From NCBI GenBank assembly GCA_002371695.1, contig DFGG01000043.1, positions 1 to 7,168 on the forward strand: 7,168 nucleotides of DNA, in the 5' to 3' direction. The notes below the pieces were generated by a model that did no database searches, was not told where the DNA came from, and saw nothing but the letters and a program-made list of their open reading frames with translations. The position numbers and the translations under genes were made by a program. This DNA is from a bacterium UBA3756 (lineage in GTDB: Bacteria > Bacteroidota > Bacteroidia > Bacteroidales > Bacteroidaceae). Positions 1-7,168 of this stretch are shown piece by piece (within the stretch, counting starts at the first letter, position 1; every line of letters begins with the position of its first letter).

Positions 1-47
1 ACCTCCTTGTCTTCAAATGACTTATATAAGTTCTTGACTTCTATCAT
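1..47 (-). CDS. mlaF: MlaF-type ABC transporter ATP-binding protein, N-terminal fragment
   Basis: This is the first 15 codons of a gene that runs off the left edge. The reverse strand from base 47 reads MIEVKNLYKSFEDKE, a typical opening beta-strand of an ABC ATPase (IEVKNLYKSF). Its ATG overlaps the TGA of the permease gene in an ATGA arrangement, so the two are translationally coupled. An ATPase directly after an MlaE-type permease is expected to power that permease in phospholipid transport between the outer and inner membranes. No Walker motif lies within the window, so the MlaF assignment rests on the operon position and the N-terminal match. Another ABC ATPase subfamily is possible but unlikely. 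Confidence 0.8.
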   Translation of the reverse strand, partial: MIEVKNLYKSFEDKE

Positions 48-790
48 GACAGCAGTTGGGTTAGGAAGACATCAGAGAAGAGTATCAGTACGCTTGAGGA
101 CACGACGGCATCGGTAGAAGCCTTACCCACATTGACGGAGCCACCCTCGACGGTATAGCCGCAGAAGGCAGGCACGCTGGAGATGATGAAGGCGAAGAAC
201 TGGCTCTTGATGAGCGACATATACATGAACCATGGCACAAATGAGTGTTGCAGGCCGAGCGTCAGGTCGTCGGGAGGCAGCACGTGCATGCCGTAGGCGG
301 TGAAGTAGGCTCCCAGGATGCCGGTGGCAGAGGAGAAGATGACCAGACAGGGCATGATGGTGAGCATGCCCATGATCTTGGGCAGGATGAGGTAACAGGC
401 GGAGTTGACGCCCATGATCTCCAGGGCGTCGATCTGCTGGGTGACGCGCATCGTGCCCAGCTCGGAGGCGATGTTCGACCCAACCTTGCCTGCCAGGATG
501 AGACACATGATGGACGAGGAGAACTCGAGCAGCAGGATCTCTCGTGTGACATAGCCGCTGACCCACCGGGGCATCCAGGGGCTCTGGATGTTGAGCTTCA
601 TCTGGATGCAGATGACGGCTCCGATGAAGAACGAGATGAGCAGTACGATACCGATGGAGTTGACGCCCAGCTGGGCCATCTCCTTGACATACTGTTTGAA
701 GAACATGCGCATCCGTTCCGGGATGGAGAAAACACGCCCCATCAGCATGACGTAGCGGCCCAGAATATGCAGATATCTGTTAATAAGCAT
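44..790 (-). CDS. mlaE: MlaE-type ABC transporter permease (lipid asymmetry maintenance)
   Basis: This is the inner-membrane permease subunit of an MCE/Mla phospholipid transporter, which works with MlaF (ATPase) and an MCE-domain MlaD protein to move phospholipids across the envelope. With the ATG at 790 the protein is 248 residues, close to the family norm. An upstream ATG at 838 would add 16 residues (MLKKNCNFAPKYNTLS), but they are translated from the promoter and repeat region and are rejected. An amphipathic N-terminus (PERMRMFFKQYVKEMAQLG, about 24-42) precedes hydrophobic segments near 45-64, 86-104, 135-160, 189-208 and 225-245. The family hallmark loop is present as ELGTMRVTQQIDALEIMGV (110-128). 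The stop overlaps the start of the ATPase gene. MlaD and the other partners are not in the window. The subfamily call is firm; the exact substrate and direction of transport are inferred from the family. Confidence 0.93.
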   Translation of the reverse strand: MLINRYLHILGRYVMLMGRVFSIPERMRMFFKQYVKEMAQLGVNSIGIVLLISFFIGAVICIQMKLNIQSPWMPRWVSGYVTREILLLEFSSSIMCLILAGKVGSNIASELGTMRVTQQIDALEIMGVNSACYLILPKIMGMLTIMPCLVIFSSATGILGAYFTAYGMHVLPPDDLTLGLQHSFVPWFMYMSLIKSQFFAFIISSVPAFCGYTVEGGSVNVGKASTDAVVSSSVLILFSDVFLTQLLS

Positions 791-813
791 ACTAAGAGTA
801 TTGTATTTGGGTG

Positions 814-821
814 CAAAATTA
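814..821 (-). promoter_or_regulatory. Bacteroidota-type promoter -7 element for mlaFE
   Basis: On the minus strand these bases read TAATTTTG, a full match to the Bacteroidota -7 consensus TAnnTTTG, and are followed by CACCC. The start of transcription would fall near 805-810, leaving a leader of about 15-20 nt before the ATG at 790. No good TTTG -33 box is seen. The expected -33 position, about 840-846, lies inside the arm of the inverted repeat. Confidence 0.6.
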
Positions 822-833
822 CAATTTTTTTTC

Positions 834-906
834 AACACAGAGCCACAGAGAGACGGAGAATTTTAATAAAAAAACAAAAAACTCTGTATCTCTGTGGCTC
901 TGTGTT
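834..906. repeat. Long inverted repeat between divergent mlaE and lptB
   Basis: The left arm 834-858 and right arm 882-906 are reverse complements at 23 of 25 positions (core CACAGAGCCACAGAGA). They are separated by an A-rich 23-nt spacer, part of which (TTTT 861-864 with AAAA 876-879) could extend the stem. The mirror axis is base 870. Similar CTCTGTGGCTCTGTG-type intergenic repeats are, to my recollection, dispersed in many bacterial genomes and produce spurious predicted peptides such as SVSLWLCVS, as both strands do here. The arms cover the expected -33 regions of both divergent promoters. Possible roles are a cruciform or protein-binding site, or a dispersed repeat copy; the sequence does not decide. 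The structure lies upstream of both predicted transcription starts, so it should act as DNA rather than RNA. Confidence 0.85.
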
Positions 907-918
907 TCAAAATTTGTA

Positions 919-926
919 TATCTTTG
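919..926 (+). promoter_or_regulatory. Bacteroidota-type promoter -7 element for lptB
   Basis: The bases read TATCTTTG, a full match to TAnnTTTG, followed by CACCCG. Transcription should start around 930-935. The element is the exact mirror image in position (about base 870) of the mlaE -7 element. The -33 region would be about 893-897, within the right arm of the inverted repeat, where only a poor TGTG is found. Confidence 0.6.
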
Positions 927-956
927 CACCCGAATATGGAAGAAACAGAGAAAACA

Positions 957-1754
957 ATGGAGCCTCAGGGGCAGTTGGTGCTGCGTACCGAGGGCCTCGT
1001 CAAGAAGTACGGCAAGCGTACGGTGGTCAACGATGTGAGCTTCGACGTGAAGCAGGGTGAGATTGTGGGTCTGCTGGGTCCCAACGGTGCCGGTAAGACC
1101 ACCTCGTTCTATATGACCACGGGTCTGATCGTGCCCAATGGCGGACATATCTACCTCGGTGATGAGGAGGTGACGAAGTATCCTGTCTACAAGCGTGCCA
1201 GGGCAGGTATAGGCTATCTGGCTCAGGAGGCCTCCGTGTTTCGTAAGATGAGCGTCGAGGATAATATCCTCTCCGTGCTTGAGATGACCGGCAAGCCCCG
1301 CGCCTATCAGCTCGAGAAACTGGAGGAACTCATCAAGGAGTTCCGTCTGGGCAAGGTGCGCAAGAACAAGGGTGACCAGCTCTCGGGAGGTGAGCGCCGA
1401 CGCACCGAGATTGCCCGTTGCCTGGCCATCGAGCCCAAGTTCATCATGCTCGACGAGCCTTTCGCCGGCGTCGACCCTATTGCCGTGGAGGATATCCAGC
1501 AGATCGTCTGGCGCCTGAAGTACCGTAACATCGGTATCCTCATTACTGACCACAATGTCGACGAGACGCTCACCATCACCGATCGTGCCTACCTGCTCTT
1601 CGAAGGGCGTATCCTGTTCCAGGGCTCGCCCGAGGAACTGGCGGAGAACAAGATTGTGCGTGAGAAATACCTCACCAACTCGTTCGTGCTGCGCAAGAAG
1701 GATTTCCAGCTGATGGAGGAGGAGCGAAAGGCCAAGGAGGAAGCCGAAGGATAA
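957..1754 (+). CDS. lptB: LPS export ABC transporter ATP-binding protein LptB
   Basis: This is the cytoplasmic ATPase that drives lipopolysaccharide extraction from the inner membrane with LptF/LptG and transfer along the Lpt bridge. Numbered from the ATG at 957 (265 residues), it has Walker [10 protein letters not shown] (41-49), Q-loop YLAQEASVF (87-95), signature [16 protein letters not shown] (142-157), Walker [14 protein letters not shown] (162-174) and the H-loop ITDHNVDET (196-204). [12 protein letters not shown] and [13 protein letters not shown] are typical of LptB rather than of generic importers. A charged tail of about 20 residues (ending [12 protein letters not shown]) extends past the length of E. 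coli LptB (241 residues). An in-frame ATG at 936 would give 272 residues, but it lies only a few bases after the predicted transcription start. I prefer 957, without a convincing Shine-Dalgarno for either. Divergent to mlaE, it suggests joint control of outer-membrane lipid traffic. Confidence 0.94.
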
Positions 1755-1800: not shown

Positions 1801-4242
1801 ATGAAACAACTTAAGAAACTGGCCGTGGTGGGCGCTATGCTTGCCCTCATGGCAGTGCCGGTGCAGGCACAGAGTGTGAGAGAGACCATCCGACTTGACG
1901 ACGGCTGGAAGTTCGCCCTCGGCAATGCTTCCGATCCCAAGAAGGACTTCGGTTGTGGCACTGAATATTTCAACTATCTGACAAAGGCCAACTCCATCCA
2001 CAACGAGGGACCTTATGTGATGAAGTTCGACGATAAGGACTGGCAGGAAGTGAGCGTGCCCCACGACTGGGTAACGACGCTGCCCTTCGCTCGTGAGGCC
2101 AGTCACTCACACGGCTACAAGACTGTGGGTTACAAGTATCCGGAGACCAGTGTGGGCTGGTATCGCAAAGTGGTGAATATCCCTGCCGGTGACCTGGGTA
2201 AGCACATTGCCCTGAGGTTCGACGGCATCTTCCGTAATGCCCGTGTATGGTTCAACGGCTTCTATATGGGTACTGAGCCCAGTGGCTATGCCACGCAAGT
2301 GTATGACGTGACGGAATACGTGAACTATGGCGGCGACAACCTGATCTGTGTGCGTGCCGATGCCACCCTCGAAGAGGGCTGGTTCTACGAAGGAGCCGGT
2401 ATCTATCGTGATGCTTGGCTTGAGAAGACGGCTGCTGTCAGTGTGGCACCTTTCGGCACCTTCGTCTATGCCGACCTGAAGGCGCCCTATGCTTCGGCCA
2501 CAATCCACGTGGAGACGGAAGTGAACAACCATTCGCTTGAGGCTCAGAAGTGTGAGGTCAGCCAGCGTCTGCTCGATGCCGATGGTAAGGAGGTGGCCTC
2601 GATGCTCCCGGTGACTCTCAGTCTGAAGGGCAAACAGACCCTCGGTTGTCAGCAGCAGGCCACCGTGCAGACGCCGCACCTGTGGAGCACTGCCGACCCC
2701 TATTTGTATAAGGTGGAGACCACTATTAAGGTGAATGGCCAGGTGACAGATGTCTATGAGACCACTACCGGTATCCGTGAGGTTGCCTTCGACGCTGAGC
2801 GGGGCTTCCTGCTCAACGGTGAACCACTGAAGCTGAAGGGCGTGAATATGCACCAGGATCACGCCGGAGTGGGAGCGGCCATCCCTGAGGCGTTGATGGC
2901 CTGGCGTATCCAGCGTCTGAAGGAACTGGGGTGTAATGCCTACCGCTCGTCGCACAATCCGATGACGCCAACCCTGCTCGACATCTGTGACCGTGAGGGC
3001 ATGCTCGTCATCGACGAGAACCGTCTTTCTGGCATCAACCAGGAGCACTTGCGACTGTTGGAGAACATGATCCGTCGCGATCGTAACCACCCCTCCGTCA
3101 TCCTCTGGAGCGACGGTAACGAGGAGTGGGGCATGGAGAATACGGTGACGGGACGCCGTGTGGCTGAGGCTATGAGAGAGTACACCCGACTGCTCGACCC
3201 CACCCGCCACTCTACGATTGCCAATGCCGGTGGCGGAGAGATGATCAAAGGACTCGATGTGGTGGGCTTCAACTATATCGCACAGAATAATGTAGACAAC
3301 CGCAAGAAGGCCAATCCCACTTGGAAGATCGTGGGAACGGAAGAGACGACGGGGTGCGGCACACGAGGCATATACTTCAATACTCCCGATCAGCCAGGGC
3401 ACATGGTGGCGATGAACCGCGACACTACACACCACCACGTGGAGAATGTGATAGAGCGTGGCTGGAAATTCTACGACGAACGGCCATGGGCGGCCGGCAT
3501 CTTCTATTGGACGGGCTTCGACTACCGTGGTGAGCCCAATCCCCTCAGCTACCCTGCCCACGACTCTGAATTCGGCATCCTCGACTATTGCGGCTTCTGG
3601 AAAGATGAGGCCTGGTATCTGAAGTCATGGTGGACGGATGAACCCACACTCCACATCTTCCCGCACTGGAATCTGGCAGGCCATGAGGGCGAGGAAATAG
3701 AACTTTGGGCCTACAGCAACTGCGACGAGGTGGAGCTGACGGTGAACGGCAAGAAACTGGGACGGCAGGCAATGCCCAAGAACGGGCACTTGAAGTGGAA
3801 GGCTGTGTACAAGCCTGGAAAGGTGGTGGCCACAGGCTATAAGAACGGCAAGAAGATCATGACTCAGACTATCGAGACCACTAAGCCGGCCTCGAAGATT
3901 GTACTCAAGTCAGACTGTCGGATGCTGACGGCCGACGGAAGAGACGTGGCTGTGGTGACGGTGGAGGTGCAGGATGCGAAGGGACGTGTCGTGCCCGATG
4001 CCTGCCCCGCGCTGACTTTCCGGCTGGAGGGAGAGGGCCGTATCCTCGGTGTGGGCGATGGCGACCCGTCGTATCCCGGCGAAGACCACCCCAAGATGCA
4101 GGACTGCAAGACATTCAGCATCCCGGCTTTCAACGGTCTTGCCCAGGTACTCGTACAAAGCGGCCGCGCATCTTCCACTCTGTCGCTGACGGCAACGAGT
4201 GACCAGCTGAAGGCAGGAAACCTGGTCATTGACACGAAATGA
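1801..4242 (+). CDS. Secreted family 2 glycoside hydrolase, beta-galactosidase type
   Basis: This is a retaining exo-glycosidase of family GH2, probably periplasmic and acting on oligosaccharides. Its 813 residues begin with a signal peptide (MKQLKKLAVVGAMLALMAVPVQAQ, cleavage probably after VQA) and no lipobox Cys. A jelly-roll sugar-binding domain follows (about 30-215; VGWYRKVV, GWFYEGAGIYRDAWLE), then an Ig-like domain (about 215-335), then the TIM barrel. The barrel carries CNAYRSSHNP (R382, H385), the acid/base Glu441 in WSDGNEEWG, and the likely nucleophile Glu514 in VGTEETTGCGTRG. The C-terminus has a DUF4982-like Ig domain (about 620-695) and a GH2 C5-like domain (about 695-805). The DHAGVGAA and DENRL motifs fit Bacteroidota beta-galactosidases, but the substrate cannot be fixed; other beta-glycosides are possible. 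It follows lptB by 46 nt with no clear promoter, so co-transcription is possible. No SusC/SusD or other polysaccharide-utilisation gene is nearby. Confidence 0.92.
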   Translation: MKQLKKLAVVGAMLALMAVPVQAQSVRETIRLDDGWKFALGNASDPKKDFGCGTEYFNYLTKANSIHNEGPYVMKFDDKDWQEVSVPHDWVTTLPFAREASHSHGYKTVGYKYPETSVGWYRKVVNIPAGDLGKHIALRFDGIFRNARVWFNGFYMGTEPSGYATQVYDVTEYVNYGGDNLICVRADATLEEGWFYEGAGIYRDAWLEKTAAVSVAPFGTFVYADLKAPYASATIHVETEVNNHSLEAQKCEVSQRLLDADGKEVASMLPVTLSLKGKQTLGCQQQATVQTPHLWSTADPYLYKVETTIKVNGQVTDVYETTTGIREVAFDAERGFLLNGEPLKLKGVNMHQDHAGVGAAIPEALMAWRIQRLKELGCNAYRSSHNPMTPTLLDICDREGMLVIDENRLSGINQEHLRLLENMIRRDRNHPSVILWSDGNEEWGMENTVTGRRVAEAMREYTRLLDPTRHSTIANAGGGEMIKGLDVVGFNYIAQNNVDNRKKANPTWKIVGTEETTGCGTRGIYFNTPDQPGHMVAMNRDTTHHHVENVIERGWKFYDERPWAAGIFYWTGFDYRGEPNPLSYPAHDSEFGILDYCGFWKDEAWYLKSWWTDEPTLHIFPHWNLAGHEGEEIELWAYSNCDEVELTVNGKKLGRQAMPKNGHLKWKAVYKPGKVVATGYKNGKKIMTQTIETTKPASKIVLKSDCRMLTADGRDVAVVTVEVQDAKGRVVPDACPALTFRLEGEGRILGVGDGDPSYPGEDHPKMQDCKTFSIPAFNGLAQVLVQSGRASSTLSLTATSDQLKAGNLVIDTK

Positions 4243-4274: not shown

Positions 4275-4307
4275 TTTAGGCATTTCCGTTTTTTATGTGT
4301 ACTTTTG
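4275..4307 (+). promoter_or_regulatory. Promoter for tig
   Basis: The -7 element TACTTTTG (4300-4307) matches TAnnTTTG and is followed by CACC. A -33 box, TTTA (4275-4278, consensus TTTG), lies 21 nt upstream, which is normal Bacteroidota spacing. The start of transcription near 4311-4314 leaves an AT-rich leader of about 40 nt before the tig ATG. The leader opens with a small palindrome at 4312-4322 and has AAGG at 4338-4341 as the only Shine-Dalgarno-like bases. Confidence 0.65.
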
Positions 4308-4353
4308 CACCTCAAATTTTGAAATATATATAATAATAAGGTATAAAAAGACA

Positions 4354-5715
4354 ATGAAGATTACATTTGAATGCCCTGATAAGATCAATGGTCTGCTGAC
4401 GATGACCGTTGAGCCTGCAGACTATCAGGAGAAAGTCGAGAAGACACTGAAAGACTATCGCAAGAAGGCACAGGTGCCGGGTTTCCGCCCCGGTCAGGTG
4501 CCCATGGGAATGATTAAGCGTCAGTATGGTACCGCCGTCAAAGTTGACGAGGTGAACCGTCTGATGGGCGAGAAACTTTATGAGTATATCCAGGAGAACA
4601 AAATCCATATGTTGGGCGACCCTCTGCCCAATCAGGAGAAGCAGCAGCCTCAGAACTTTGAGAAGGAGGGCGACCTGACCTTCGTGTTCGACATTGCCGT
4701 GGCTCCTGAGTTCAAGGTGGAACTGACTGCCAAAGACAAGATCGACTACTACACCATCGCCATCGACGATAAGCTCCTCGATGAACAGGTGAAGATGTAT
4801 CAGTCGCAGGCCGGTGAGTTTGTGAAGGCCGAGACTTTCAGTGGCAACGATACCATCACTGGCGATCTGCGCCAGCTCGACGCTGAGGGCAACACCCTCG
4901 AGGGCGGTATCACTACAGAAAGTGGCATGGTCATGCCTGCCTATTTCAAGGACGATGACCAGAAGAAACTCTTCGAAGGTTGCAAGGCTGGTGACATCAT
5001 CACCTTCAATCCTAAGAAGGCATACCCCGACAACGATGCAGAGGTGGCCGCCCTGCTGAAGGTGAAGAAGGAAGAGGTGGCAGGACTCGAGAGTGATTTC
5101 TCGTTACAGGTAACCGAAATCCGTCACTACCAGCCCGCCGAGGTCGACCAGAAACTGTTTGACCGCGTCTTCGGTGAGGGTACCGTGAAGGACGAGAAAG
5201 AGTTCCGTAGCCGTATCGCCGAAGGCCTGAAGACCCAGTTTGCCGGTAGCAGTGACTATAAGTTCCTCCAGGACGTTCGTGCCTATCTGGAGAAGAAGGT
5301 CGGCAAGCTCGAGTTCCCCGAGGCTTTGCTGAAGCGTATCATGCTGCAGAACAACAAGGATAAGGGTGAGGACTTCGTAGAGAAGAATTTCGAAGGCAGC
5401 ATCAAGGAACTGGCATGGCACCTGATGAAGGAGCAGATTGTCAGTGCCAACCAGATCAAGGTCGACGATGACGACGTGAAGCGCCTGGCCAAGGAGGCTG
5501 TACGTGCCCAGTTTGCCCAGTATGGTATGAGCAATGTGCCCGATGACGTGCTGGAGAACTATGCCAACGAGCAGCTGAAGAAGCGCGAGAGTGTCGATGG
5601 CCTCGTGGATCGTGCCGTTGACATGAAGCTGACCGAAACCCTCAAAAATGTAGTGAAACTGAATGAAAAATCGGTTTCTCTGGAGGAGTTTAACAAGATG
5701 TTGGAAGGAAAATAA
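4354..5715 (+). CDS. tig: Trigger factor (ribosome-associated chaperone)
   Basis: This cytosolic chaperone docks near the ribosomal exit tunnel and shields nascent chains. The start at 4354 (MKITFECPDKING, 453 residues) is preferred over an in-frame ATG at 4297, which lies inside the promoter. The ribosome-binding N-terminal domain carries the signature loop GFRPGQVP at residues 43-50, equivalent in position to GFRK in E. coli. The middle section (about 155-256) aligns with the FKBP-type prolyl isomerase domain but is degenerate and lacks recognisable catalytic aromatic residues, as I recall for Bacteroidota trigger factors. It is therefore probably a chaperone without strong isomerase activity. 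The rest (about 257-453) is the charged helical chaperone domain. It is followed by clpP and clpX, the same tig-clpP-clpX order found in many bacteria, here with a separate clpP promoter. Confidence 0.96.
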   Translation: MKITFECPDKINGLLTMTVEPADYQEKVEKTLKDYRKKAQVPGFRPGQVPMGMIKRQYGTAVKVDEVNRLMGEKLYEYIQENKIHMLGDPLPNQEKQQPQNFEKEGDLTFVFDIAVAPEFKVELTAKDKIDYYTIAIDDKLLDEQVKMYQSQAGEFVKAETFSGNDTITGDLRQLDAEGNTLEGGITTESGMVMPAYFKDDDQKKLFEGCKAGDIITFNPKKAYPDNDAEVAALLKVKKEEVAGLESDFSLQVTEIRHYQPAEVDQKLFDRVFGEGTVKDEKEFRSRIAEGLKTQFAGSSDYKFLQDVRAYLEKKVGKLEFPEALLKRIMLQNNKDKGEDFVEKNFEGSIKELAWHLMKEQIVSANQIKVDDDDVKRLAKEAVRAQFAQYGMSNVPDDVLENYANEQLKKRESVDGLVDRAVDMKLTETLKNVVKLNEKSVSLEEFNKMLEGK

Positions 5716-5744: not shown

Positions 5745-5776
5745 TTAGGTAGTTATCGACTTTTTTAGTATCTTTG
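5745..5776 (+). promoter_or_regulatory. Promoter for clpPX
   Basis: The -7 element TATCTTTG (5769-5776) matches TAnnTTTG, and TTAG (5745-5748) lies 20 nt upstream as a poor -33 box. Transcription would start near 5781-5784, giving a leader of about 60 nt. One arm of a 14-bp inverted repeat falls between the two promoter elements. The clpP start has AAAGGAAG at 5832-5839, the clearest Shine-Dalgarno-like sequence in the window. Confidence 0.6.
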
Positions 5777-5814
5777 TGTCCCAAAATCGCGGAGATATTG
5801 AAAAGTCGATAACT
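5751..5814. repeat. 14-bp perfect inverted repeat around the clpP -7 element
   Basis: AGTTATCGACTTTT (5751-5764) and AAAAGTCGATAACT (5801-5814) are perfect reverse complements separated by 36 nt. The left arm fills the spacer between the -33 and -7 elements; the right arm is in the predicted 5' leader and is followed by five T residues (5815-5819). It could be a paired operator. In read-through transcripts from tig it could form a long-loop stem followed by a short U run. Both readings are inference. Confidence 0.7.
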
Positions 5815-5844: not shown

Positions 5845-6519
5845 ATGAATATGAAAAATGATTTTAGGAAATATGCTATACAGCATTTGGGAATGGATGG
5901 CCTGACACTCGATGAGGTGATGAAGGTGCAGTCGCAGTATTTGAATCCATATATCCTTGAGGAGCGCCAGTTGAATGTCACGCAAATGGACGTCTTCTCA
6001 CGTCTGATGATGGACCGCATCATCTTCCTCGGTACACAGATAGATGACTATACAGCCAATACGCTTCAGGCGCAGCTGCTCTACCTCGACTCTGTGGACT
6101 CTGGCAAGGATATCAGCATCTACATCAATAGCCCTGGCGGTAGCGTGACGGCAGGACTGGGTATCTACGATACGATGCAGTTTATCTCCTCCGACGTGGC
6201 TACCATCTGTACTGGCATGGCTGCCTCGATGGGTGCTGTGCTGCTCGTGGCAGGTCAGGAGGGCAAGCGCTCGGCACTGCCCCACAGTAGGGTGATGATT
6301 CACCAGCCGCTGGGTGGTGTGCAAGGCCAGGCATCGGATATCGAGATTGAGGCCAAGGAGATTCTGAAATTCAAGAAAGAGTTATATACCATCATCTCGG
6401 AACACTCCCACACTCCCTATGATAAGGTGTATGCCGACTCTGACCGTAACTACTGGATGACGGCAGAAGAGGCCAAGGCATACGGTATGATTGACAACGT
6501 ATTGACGAGGAAGCAATAA
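5845..6519 (+). CDS. clpP: ATP-dependent Clp protease proteolytic subunit ClpP, with Asn at the triad Asp position
   Basis: This is the serine peptidase subunit that forms the barrel chamber of ClpXP and degrades unfolded or tagged proteins delivered by ClpX. Its 224 residues show INSPGGSV (oxyanion region), nucleophile Ser128 in TGMAASMGA, and His153 in SRVMIHQP. Alignment without gaps to E. coli ClpP from the His places the catalytic Asp at residue 202, in DSDRNYWM. The codon 6448-6450 is AAC, Asn; D198 and D200 are nearby but out of register. Ser-His spacing (25) and the domain layout are normal. The N-terminus before the ClpP fold ([19 protein letters not shown] onward) is longer than in E. 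coli, as I recall for Bacteroidota. The ATG at 5845 follows a Shine-Dalgarno-like AAAGGAAG; another ATG at 5851 is possible. The stop overlaps clpX by one base. Confidence 0.95.
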
Positions 6520-7168
6520 TGGCAAGGAAAGCATGTAGTTTCTGTGGCAGGACAGAGAATGAGGTAAGGCTTCTCATTACTGGTATCAACGGCTATATCT
6601 GTGAGGACTGTGCTCAGCAGGCTTACCGCATTGTGCAGGAGCAGGACTGGCTGAATGGGAACAAGTCGCAGAAGAGCAAGACCGGCTTGAAGAAGGTGCC
6701 TAAGCCCATGGAAATCAAGGCACATCTCGACCAGTACGTCATCGGACAGGACGAGGCCAAGCGTTTCCTCTCTGTAGCTGTCTATAACCACTATAAGCGC
6801 CTTCAGCAGCCGCAGGACAAGGATGGCGTGGAGATTGAGAAGAGCAATATCATCATGGTGGGTTCTACGGGTACCGGTAAGACACTGTTGGCCCGTTCTA
6901 TTGCCCGTCTGCTTGACGTGCCTTTTACCATCGTCGACGCTACCGTGTTCACTGAGGCCGGTTATGTGGGAGAAGATGTGGAGAGTATCCTGACGCGACT
7001 CTTGCAGGTGGCCGATTATGATGTGAAGGCTGCTGAGCGCGGTATCGTGTTCATCGATGAAATAGACAAGATAGCCCGTAAGAGCGACAATCCTTCGATC
7101 ACTCGCGACGTCAGTGGTGAGGGTGTTCAGCAGGGGTTGCTCAAGTTGTTGGAAGGAACCAATGTCAA
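6519..7168 (+). CDS. clpX: ATP-dependent Clp protease ATP-binding subunit ClpX, truncated at window edge
   Basis: This is the AAA+ unfoldase that recognises substrates and threads them into ClpP. About 216 codons are present; the 3' half lies outside the window. The start ATG shares its A with the clpP stop (TAATG), so the pair is translationally coupled. Visible in order are the zinc-binding domain with Cys6, Cys9, Cys28 and Cys31 (CSFCG and CEDC), the entry helix [32 protein letters not shown], Walker A GSTGTGKT (115-122), pore loop GYVG (148-151) within [12 protein letters not shown], Walker [14 protein letters not shown] (D180, E181), and the sensor-region stretch [21 protein letters not shown]. 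All key residues seen are intact. Walker A has Ser at the second position, where E. coli has Pro; this should not matter. The IGF loop that contacts ClpP is beyond the edge. Confidence 0.97.

Follow-up and report, generated by a model that had tools for sequence, protein, structure and literature searches.

The ClpP encoded in the window (the whole stretch of 7,168 nucleotides that was analysed) was found to carry Asn202 in the place of the catalytic Asp, and this residue is, as judged from aligned ClpP sequences, tightly coupled to residue 169, which is Glu here. The pairing makes it fairly probable that a Ser-His-Asn...Glu' tetrad, with a carboxylate supplied by the neighbouring subunit, operates in a most likely active peptidase with a rewired relay. 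The earlier note on this DNA had called Asn202 correctly and had overlooked the coupling to residue 169, which is the main point.

The window ClpP scored 453.8 bits against NCBIfam NF011091 (cut-off 361) and 263.5 against Pfam PF00574 (cut-off 20.2), and with 270.4 fell under the cut-off of the general model TIGR00493 (308.6). In this Prevotella-group bacterium it serves as the housekeeping ClpP, and its neighbours are listed in Table 1. Upstream of clpP a perfect 14-base inverted repeat was seen (arms at 5751-5764 and 5801-5814, 36 bases apart), and between the arms lies what we read as a Bacteroidota-like promoter box, TATCTTTG. Similar paired arms were seen in loci L001-L005 and L059, and the repeat is possibly an operator.

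Table 1. Genes and codons in the window, with position, strand and basis of the call.
Feature	Position	Strand	Basis
clpP, 224 aa, with Ser-His-Asn at the triad positions	5845-6519	+	ORF call, profile score, alignment
Codon of nucleophile Ser128	6226-6228	+	alignment and position arithmetic
Codon of catalytic His153	6301-6303	+	alignment and position arithmetic
Codon GAG of Glu169, handle helix, 16 residues past His153, covarying with residue 202	6349-6351	+	
Codon of Arg201, invariant in the ClpP alignment, in the place of the published oligomerization-sensor Arg	6445-6447	+	
Codon AAC of Asn202, triad Asp place	6448-6450	+	alignment
tig (trigger factor) ORF, upstream neighbour of clpP	4297-5715	+	ORF call and profile
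clpX, 5' part, running off the window; its start overlaps the final bases of clpP	6519-7168	+	
LptB-type ABC ATPase	894-1754	+	ORF call and profile
GalA-type beta-galactosidase	1801-4242	+	ORF call and profile
MlaE-type permease	44-838	-	ORF call and profile

The triad positions are occupied by Ser128, His153 and Asn202, so that the Ser and His expected of a ClpP are in place and the Asp of the canonical Ser-His-Asp enzyme is not. Asn202 follows His153 by 49 residues without an indel in the alignment. At the same distance from the catalytic His, Asp was found in two enterobacterial main ClpPs (L161 and L256) and Asn in the Listeria ClpP1 chain 4jcq_A, and the window ClpP shares with Listeria ClpP1 both the Asn at +49 and the Glu at +16. 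The alignment thus bears out the claim of an ungapped Asn in the Asp position; DRNYW at 6442-6456 and its AAC codon had been placed correctly, and Listeria ClpP1 is a true precedent for the Asn.

Asn was present in 35 of the 36 genomes from the same genus, the remaining one (G015) having Asp; the nearest compared genome, G001, has 45% of sampled words in common with the window. Among the 120 database homologues listed of 8000 scored, which include the window's own protein, 118 were Ser-His-Asn, one was Ser-His-Asp and one was an Asn row without an aligned His. Asn202 is therefore no base-call artefact, and the question of whether it is lineage-wide or strain-specific is answered against the latter. 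A search of 299 genomes of the genus for an Asp motif that demanded Tyr-Trp-Met after the Asp gave matches in 6, all six confirmed as ClpP, in a tally that covered Asp only. Named carriers of Asn among the matches listed, obtained with a pattern that demanded Trp after Asn and hence giving no frequencies, were Segatella copri, Prevotella falsenii, Hoylesella nanceiensis and Palleniella muris.

ClpP looks single-copy in the relatives of the window organism. Among the 36 same-genus genomes, an extra ClpP match was found only in G002 and G004 (36% and 28% identical), and these matches were open frames of 372-376 aa that we read as phage-protease-like; the two matches of G001 are one gene split by a run of N. 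In five of six named Prevotellaceae genomes one ClpP match was found, and Palleniella muris had two additional weak ones. The suggestion that this might be the only ClpP of the organism was borne out in the close relatives that were checked, each with one true ClpP. With one true ClpP in the relatives and a window gene linked as tig-clpP-clpX, the arrangement of a Listeria ClpP1-type paralogue, a second ClpP beside an Asp-type one, was not found.

Several other ClpP-like frames were seen. In a few Bacteroidales (L060, L061, L062), open frames of 372-376 aa resemble ClpP in their N-terminal part; we read these frames as phage prohead-protease-like. Second ClpP copies in G807, G818, G823 and G833 are each broken by one stop codon and are for that reason probably decaying paralogues. 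A recurrent DRDFWM match considered as a second Asp-type ClpP in Prevotella was rejected: in the two copies examined it lies in a protein of 455-464 aa with a ClpP score of 36, in our reading an adenylosuccinate lyase.

Within an alignment of 337 ClpPs, residue 169 was Glu in 156, Gln in 16 and another residue in 3 of the 175 Asn rows, and Glu in 3 and Gln in 22 of the 162 Asp rows, the rest of which mostly had Thr or His. Among 18332 column pairs scored in the 280 main-type rows, 169-202 had the highest APC-corrected mutual information. A two-trait Markov model, run on a tree built without columns 169 and 202, gave likelihood ratios of 79.3 for Glu169 and 85.8 for Glu or Gln, compared to 3.9-19.7 for 13 other columns. 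In a scan of column-residue combinations (363 tests completed of 399 planned), Glu169 came first (79.3) and Thr169 second (45.7); the best other column reached 30.0 and the median was 6.5. By the fitted rates, Asp changed to Asn chiefly where Glu169 was present, and Glu169 disappeared quickly when paired with Asp but not when paired with Asn. For Bacteroidales alone the ratios were 36.5 (Glu) and 47.7 (Glu or Gln), with six control columns at 3.0-31.3, so that Glu169 stood barely above column 159 (31.3).

Phylogenetically independent pairs on well-supported branches showed the same direction but were too few for significance. In the main-type tree, 3.2 pairs were with and 1.0 against the association for Glu, of 6, and 3.2 with and 0 against for Glu or Gln; the 337-row tree gave 7.1 with, 1.0 against and 1.9 without a difference for Glu. 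Ten Asp rows fall inside the Prevotella-group clade, and at residue 169 these had Thr (7) or Val (3) and in no case Glu. Among the listed database relatives of the window, all 118 Asn proteins with both residues aligned were Asn/Glu and the sole Asp protein had Thr; Listeria-type homologues were Asn/Glu in 120 of 120 among the matches listed. After the coupling was found, 25 Asn ClpPs were examined from a phylum that had already supplied 11 rows; one came from a genome used before, and the remaining 24 had Glu (11) or Gln (13) at 169. A description of this coupling was not found in the open-licence literature, nor was an account of how prevalent Ser-His-Asn is in sole ClpPs; earlier mention in subscription papers is possible. 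Ser-His-Asn itself is already known in ClpP and is termed rare in the available part of PMC12900304.

The trees indicate that Asn has several separate origins, with further cases in other Bacteroidota, in the Enterococcus phylum and in paralogues of the Listeria ClpP1 type. With column 202 left out of the tree building, 147 Bacteroidales ClpPs required at least 10 state changes, 6 of them forced by well-supported branches; 17 changes were needed for the 280 main-type rows, and 19, of which 10 were forced, for the 337 mixed rows, where long branches call for caution. These counts are events rather than rates, since rows were partly picked for bearing Asn. The supposition that Asn202 is an isolated oddity was thus not upheld: it is nearly genus-wide and recurrent across phyla. 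A strict requirement for Trp two residues past the Asn was considered and rejected. The first Asn rows had this Trp, but several searches had demanded it; with a later pattern that allowed Phe, Tyr or Trp, main ClpPs were found in which Phe-Phe or Tyr-Tyr follows the Asn, and the two-trait likelihood ratio of the Trp trait against Asn was merely 13.7.

In an order-wide sample the Asn motif was found in 18 of 393 genomes, 10 being ClpP and 8 not. Within the phylum sample of 128 genomes the main ClpP was read in 70 (30 loci and 40 fetched), and Asn was present in 11, nine in one family and two in another. In the phylum of Enterococcus sp. 5H, a looser motif matched 36 of 149 genomes and a main-type Asn ClpP was found in 11, nine with one ClpP match and two (G906 and G924) with two. 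A draw of 358 genomes that contains these 149 gave a tighter motif in 39 and an Asn ClpP in 35, two of which carry Asn solely in a Listeria-type paralogue; the other four motif matches were non-ClpP. For the Xenorhabdus phylum (150 genomes, looser motif in 37), one of the 30 loci fetched was a ClpP, an Asn paralogue, and the Xenorhabdus match itself is a short fragment. The Asn form was the sole ClpP match in six further uncultured lineages (G707, G708, G711, G713, G714 and G715); in Enterococcus and acetic acid bacteria, among others, it is a second copy beside an Asp-type ClpP. Because it is the sole ClpP match in many genomes, the Asn form presumably works.

Other arrangements of paired ClpP genes were also observed. 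An 8-kb stretch of Erwinia phyllosphaerae (L161) holds the main ClpP, of the Asp/His type, together with a second one of the Asn/Glu type, and adjoining genes of one Asn-type and one Asp-type ClpP lie on contig C201 of a Phycisphaerae MAG (G710; L263 and L270). Some Bacteroidia genomes have two adjoining ClpP genes that are both Asp-type (L289, L290, L294, L297, L298 and L300).

Residue 169 lies 16 residues past His153, as His138 of E. coli lies 16 past His122, and it is His in L161 and L256. According to the available part of the review PMC12383707, Asp171 of E. coli hydrogen-bonds His122 and, across the interface, His138 of the adjacent monomer; the contact from the handle-helix His to the triad Asp stabilises the extended form, and protonation of the His is proposed as the switch to the compact form. 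By the matching +16 position, the covarying residue 169 takes the place of the residue known to contact the triad acid from the adjacent subunit. An AlphaFold2 monomer model (mean pLDDT 85.1, 68 sequences) placed residue 169 on helix 163-188, with blocks 151-160 and 161-170 less certain (68 and 73). Asp at 202 goes mostly with hydrogen-bond-donating residues at 169, and Asn with Glu or Gln.

In the proposed tetrad, the side-chain carbonyl of Asn202, in the place of E. coli Asp171, would orient His153, and its amide would be held by Glu169 of the adjacent subunit, as His138 bonds Asp171 in E. coli. The carboxylate would thereby be shifted from the triad position to the neighbour (Ser128-His153-Asn202...Glu169'), and the tetrad would be complete only in the assembled, extended barrel. 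The contact, its support of catalysis and its dependence on assembly we infer from the comparisons above. Gln169, able to pair with Asp or Asn, may be an evolutionary bridge between the designs. The wider proposal is plausible, with a chance somewhat short of even, that such a tetrad is used by a recurring class of ClpPs, which includes the main ClpP of most Prevotella-group genomes sampled and of roughly one in ten of the Enterococcus-phylum genomes sampled; as the carboxylate would be given by the neighbouring subunit, the active site would be chemically present only in the assembled ring. Against the tetrad stand three Asn rows without Glu or Gln and three Asp rows with Glu, the inactivity of S. 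aureus D172N, a Ser-His-Pro ClpP whose low activity is not mainly due to its third triad residue (PMC12900304), the small number of independent pairs and the narrow margin over column 159 in Bacteroidales; rows were also partly picked for bearing Asn.

The strongest rival is the one raised in the earlier note, a weakened or latent triad in which Asn202 lowers activity or favours an inactive compressed or heptameric state, ClpX or substrate activates the enzyme, and Glu169 adapts the structure of the handle without taking part in the relay. It draws on S. aureus D172N, described in the available parts of PMC7496096, PMC8182300 and PMC9035409 as an inactive compressed tetradecamer that ADEP reactivates, and on Listeria ClpP1, which in the available part of PMC5361862 is an inactive heptamer alone and forms tetradecamers of higher activity as N172D. 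This gain of activity although Glu is present at +16 argues against the tetrad. A simply weakened triad is nevertheless not supported by the recurrence of Asn and its long retention in sole ClpPs, nor by the coupling to Glu or Gln at 169, the position in contact with the triad acid, and we consider it unlikely, if a serious contender.

Quite improbable is a coupling that reflects only ring-ring or subunit packing, for example via Arg201, the acid being dispensable for ClpP catalysis. Arg201 is invariant in the alignment and adjoins residue 202, and a Ser-His-Pro ClpP is reported in the available part of PMC12900304 to retain some activity, Pro not being the main cause of its low activity; but the contact published in PMC12383707, as far as its available text goes, joins the counterpart of residue 169 with the triad Asp itself, and the coupling was specific to column 202 in the scan, in which invariant columns are unscorable. 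Deamidation is favoured by Gly as the next residue, and a post-translational conversion of Asn202 to Asp that restores an ordinary triad, chemically possible and with no support found, is very improbable, given that Tyr, Phe, Asn or Lys follows the Asn in the Asn rows and that the coupling to Glu or Gln169 indicates selection of the Asn itself.

Asp-to-Asn changes in ClpP have so far been described as inactivating or regulatory (S. aureus D172N, Listeria ClpP1). Should Asn ClpPs that have a Glu partner prove to be normal housekeeping proteases, triad annotation would need rethinking for the Prevotella group and many Gram-positive bacteria, as would reliance on D172N as an inactive control and work on drugs against ClpP (inhibitors, ADEP), and the tetrad would be a natural example in which a catalytic carboxylate has moved across the interface between subunits.

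Among the known systems closest to the window ClpP is Listeria monocytogenes ClpP1 (PDB 4jcq, 4ryf and 6sfx), which, counted from the catalytic His, has Asn at +49 and Glu at +16, with Phe-Trp after the Asn; PDB 4jcr has Asp at the place of the triad Asn. Listeria ClpP1 is a second ClpP that works with ClpP2 (PMC5361862, available part), whereas the window type is the main ClpP, linked to tig and clpX and apparently sole in relatives. E. coli-type ClpP, in which the triad is Ser97-His122-Asp171 and Asp171 is contacted by His138 from the adjacent monomer, shares the family, the positions and the place of the handle-helix partner, and differs in its Asp/His pair, in contrast to Asn/Glu here, and in keeping the carboxylate in the triad place. 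For S. aureus ClpP, the residue at +16 is probably Ala, so that D172N gives no test of the 169-202 pair; it has the same substitution at the triad place, but it is a laboratory mutant, by the partly available reports compressed and inactive until ADEP binds. ClpP1 of Pseudomonas plecoglossicida (Ser-His-Pro) is likewise a ClpP with a third triad residue other than Asp, but according to the available part of PMC12900304 it is a paralogue of low activity that has Pro and accompanies a canonical ClpP2.
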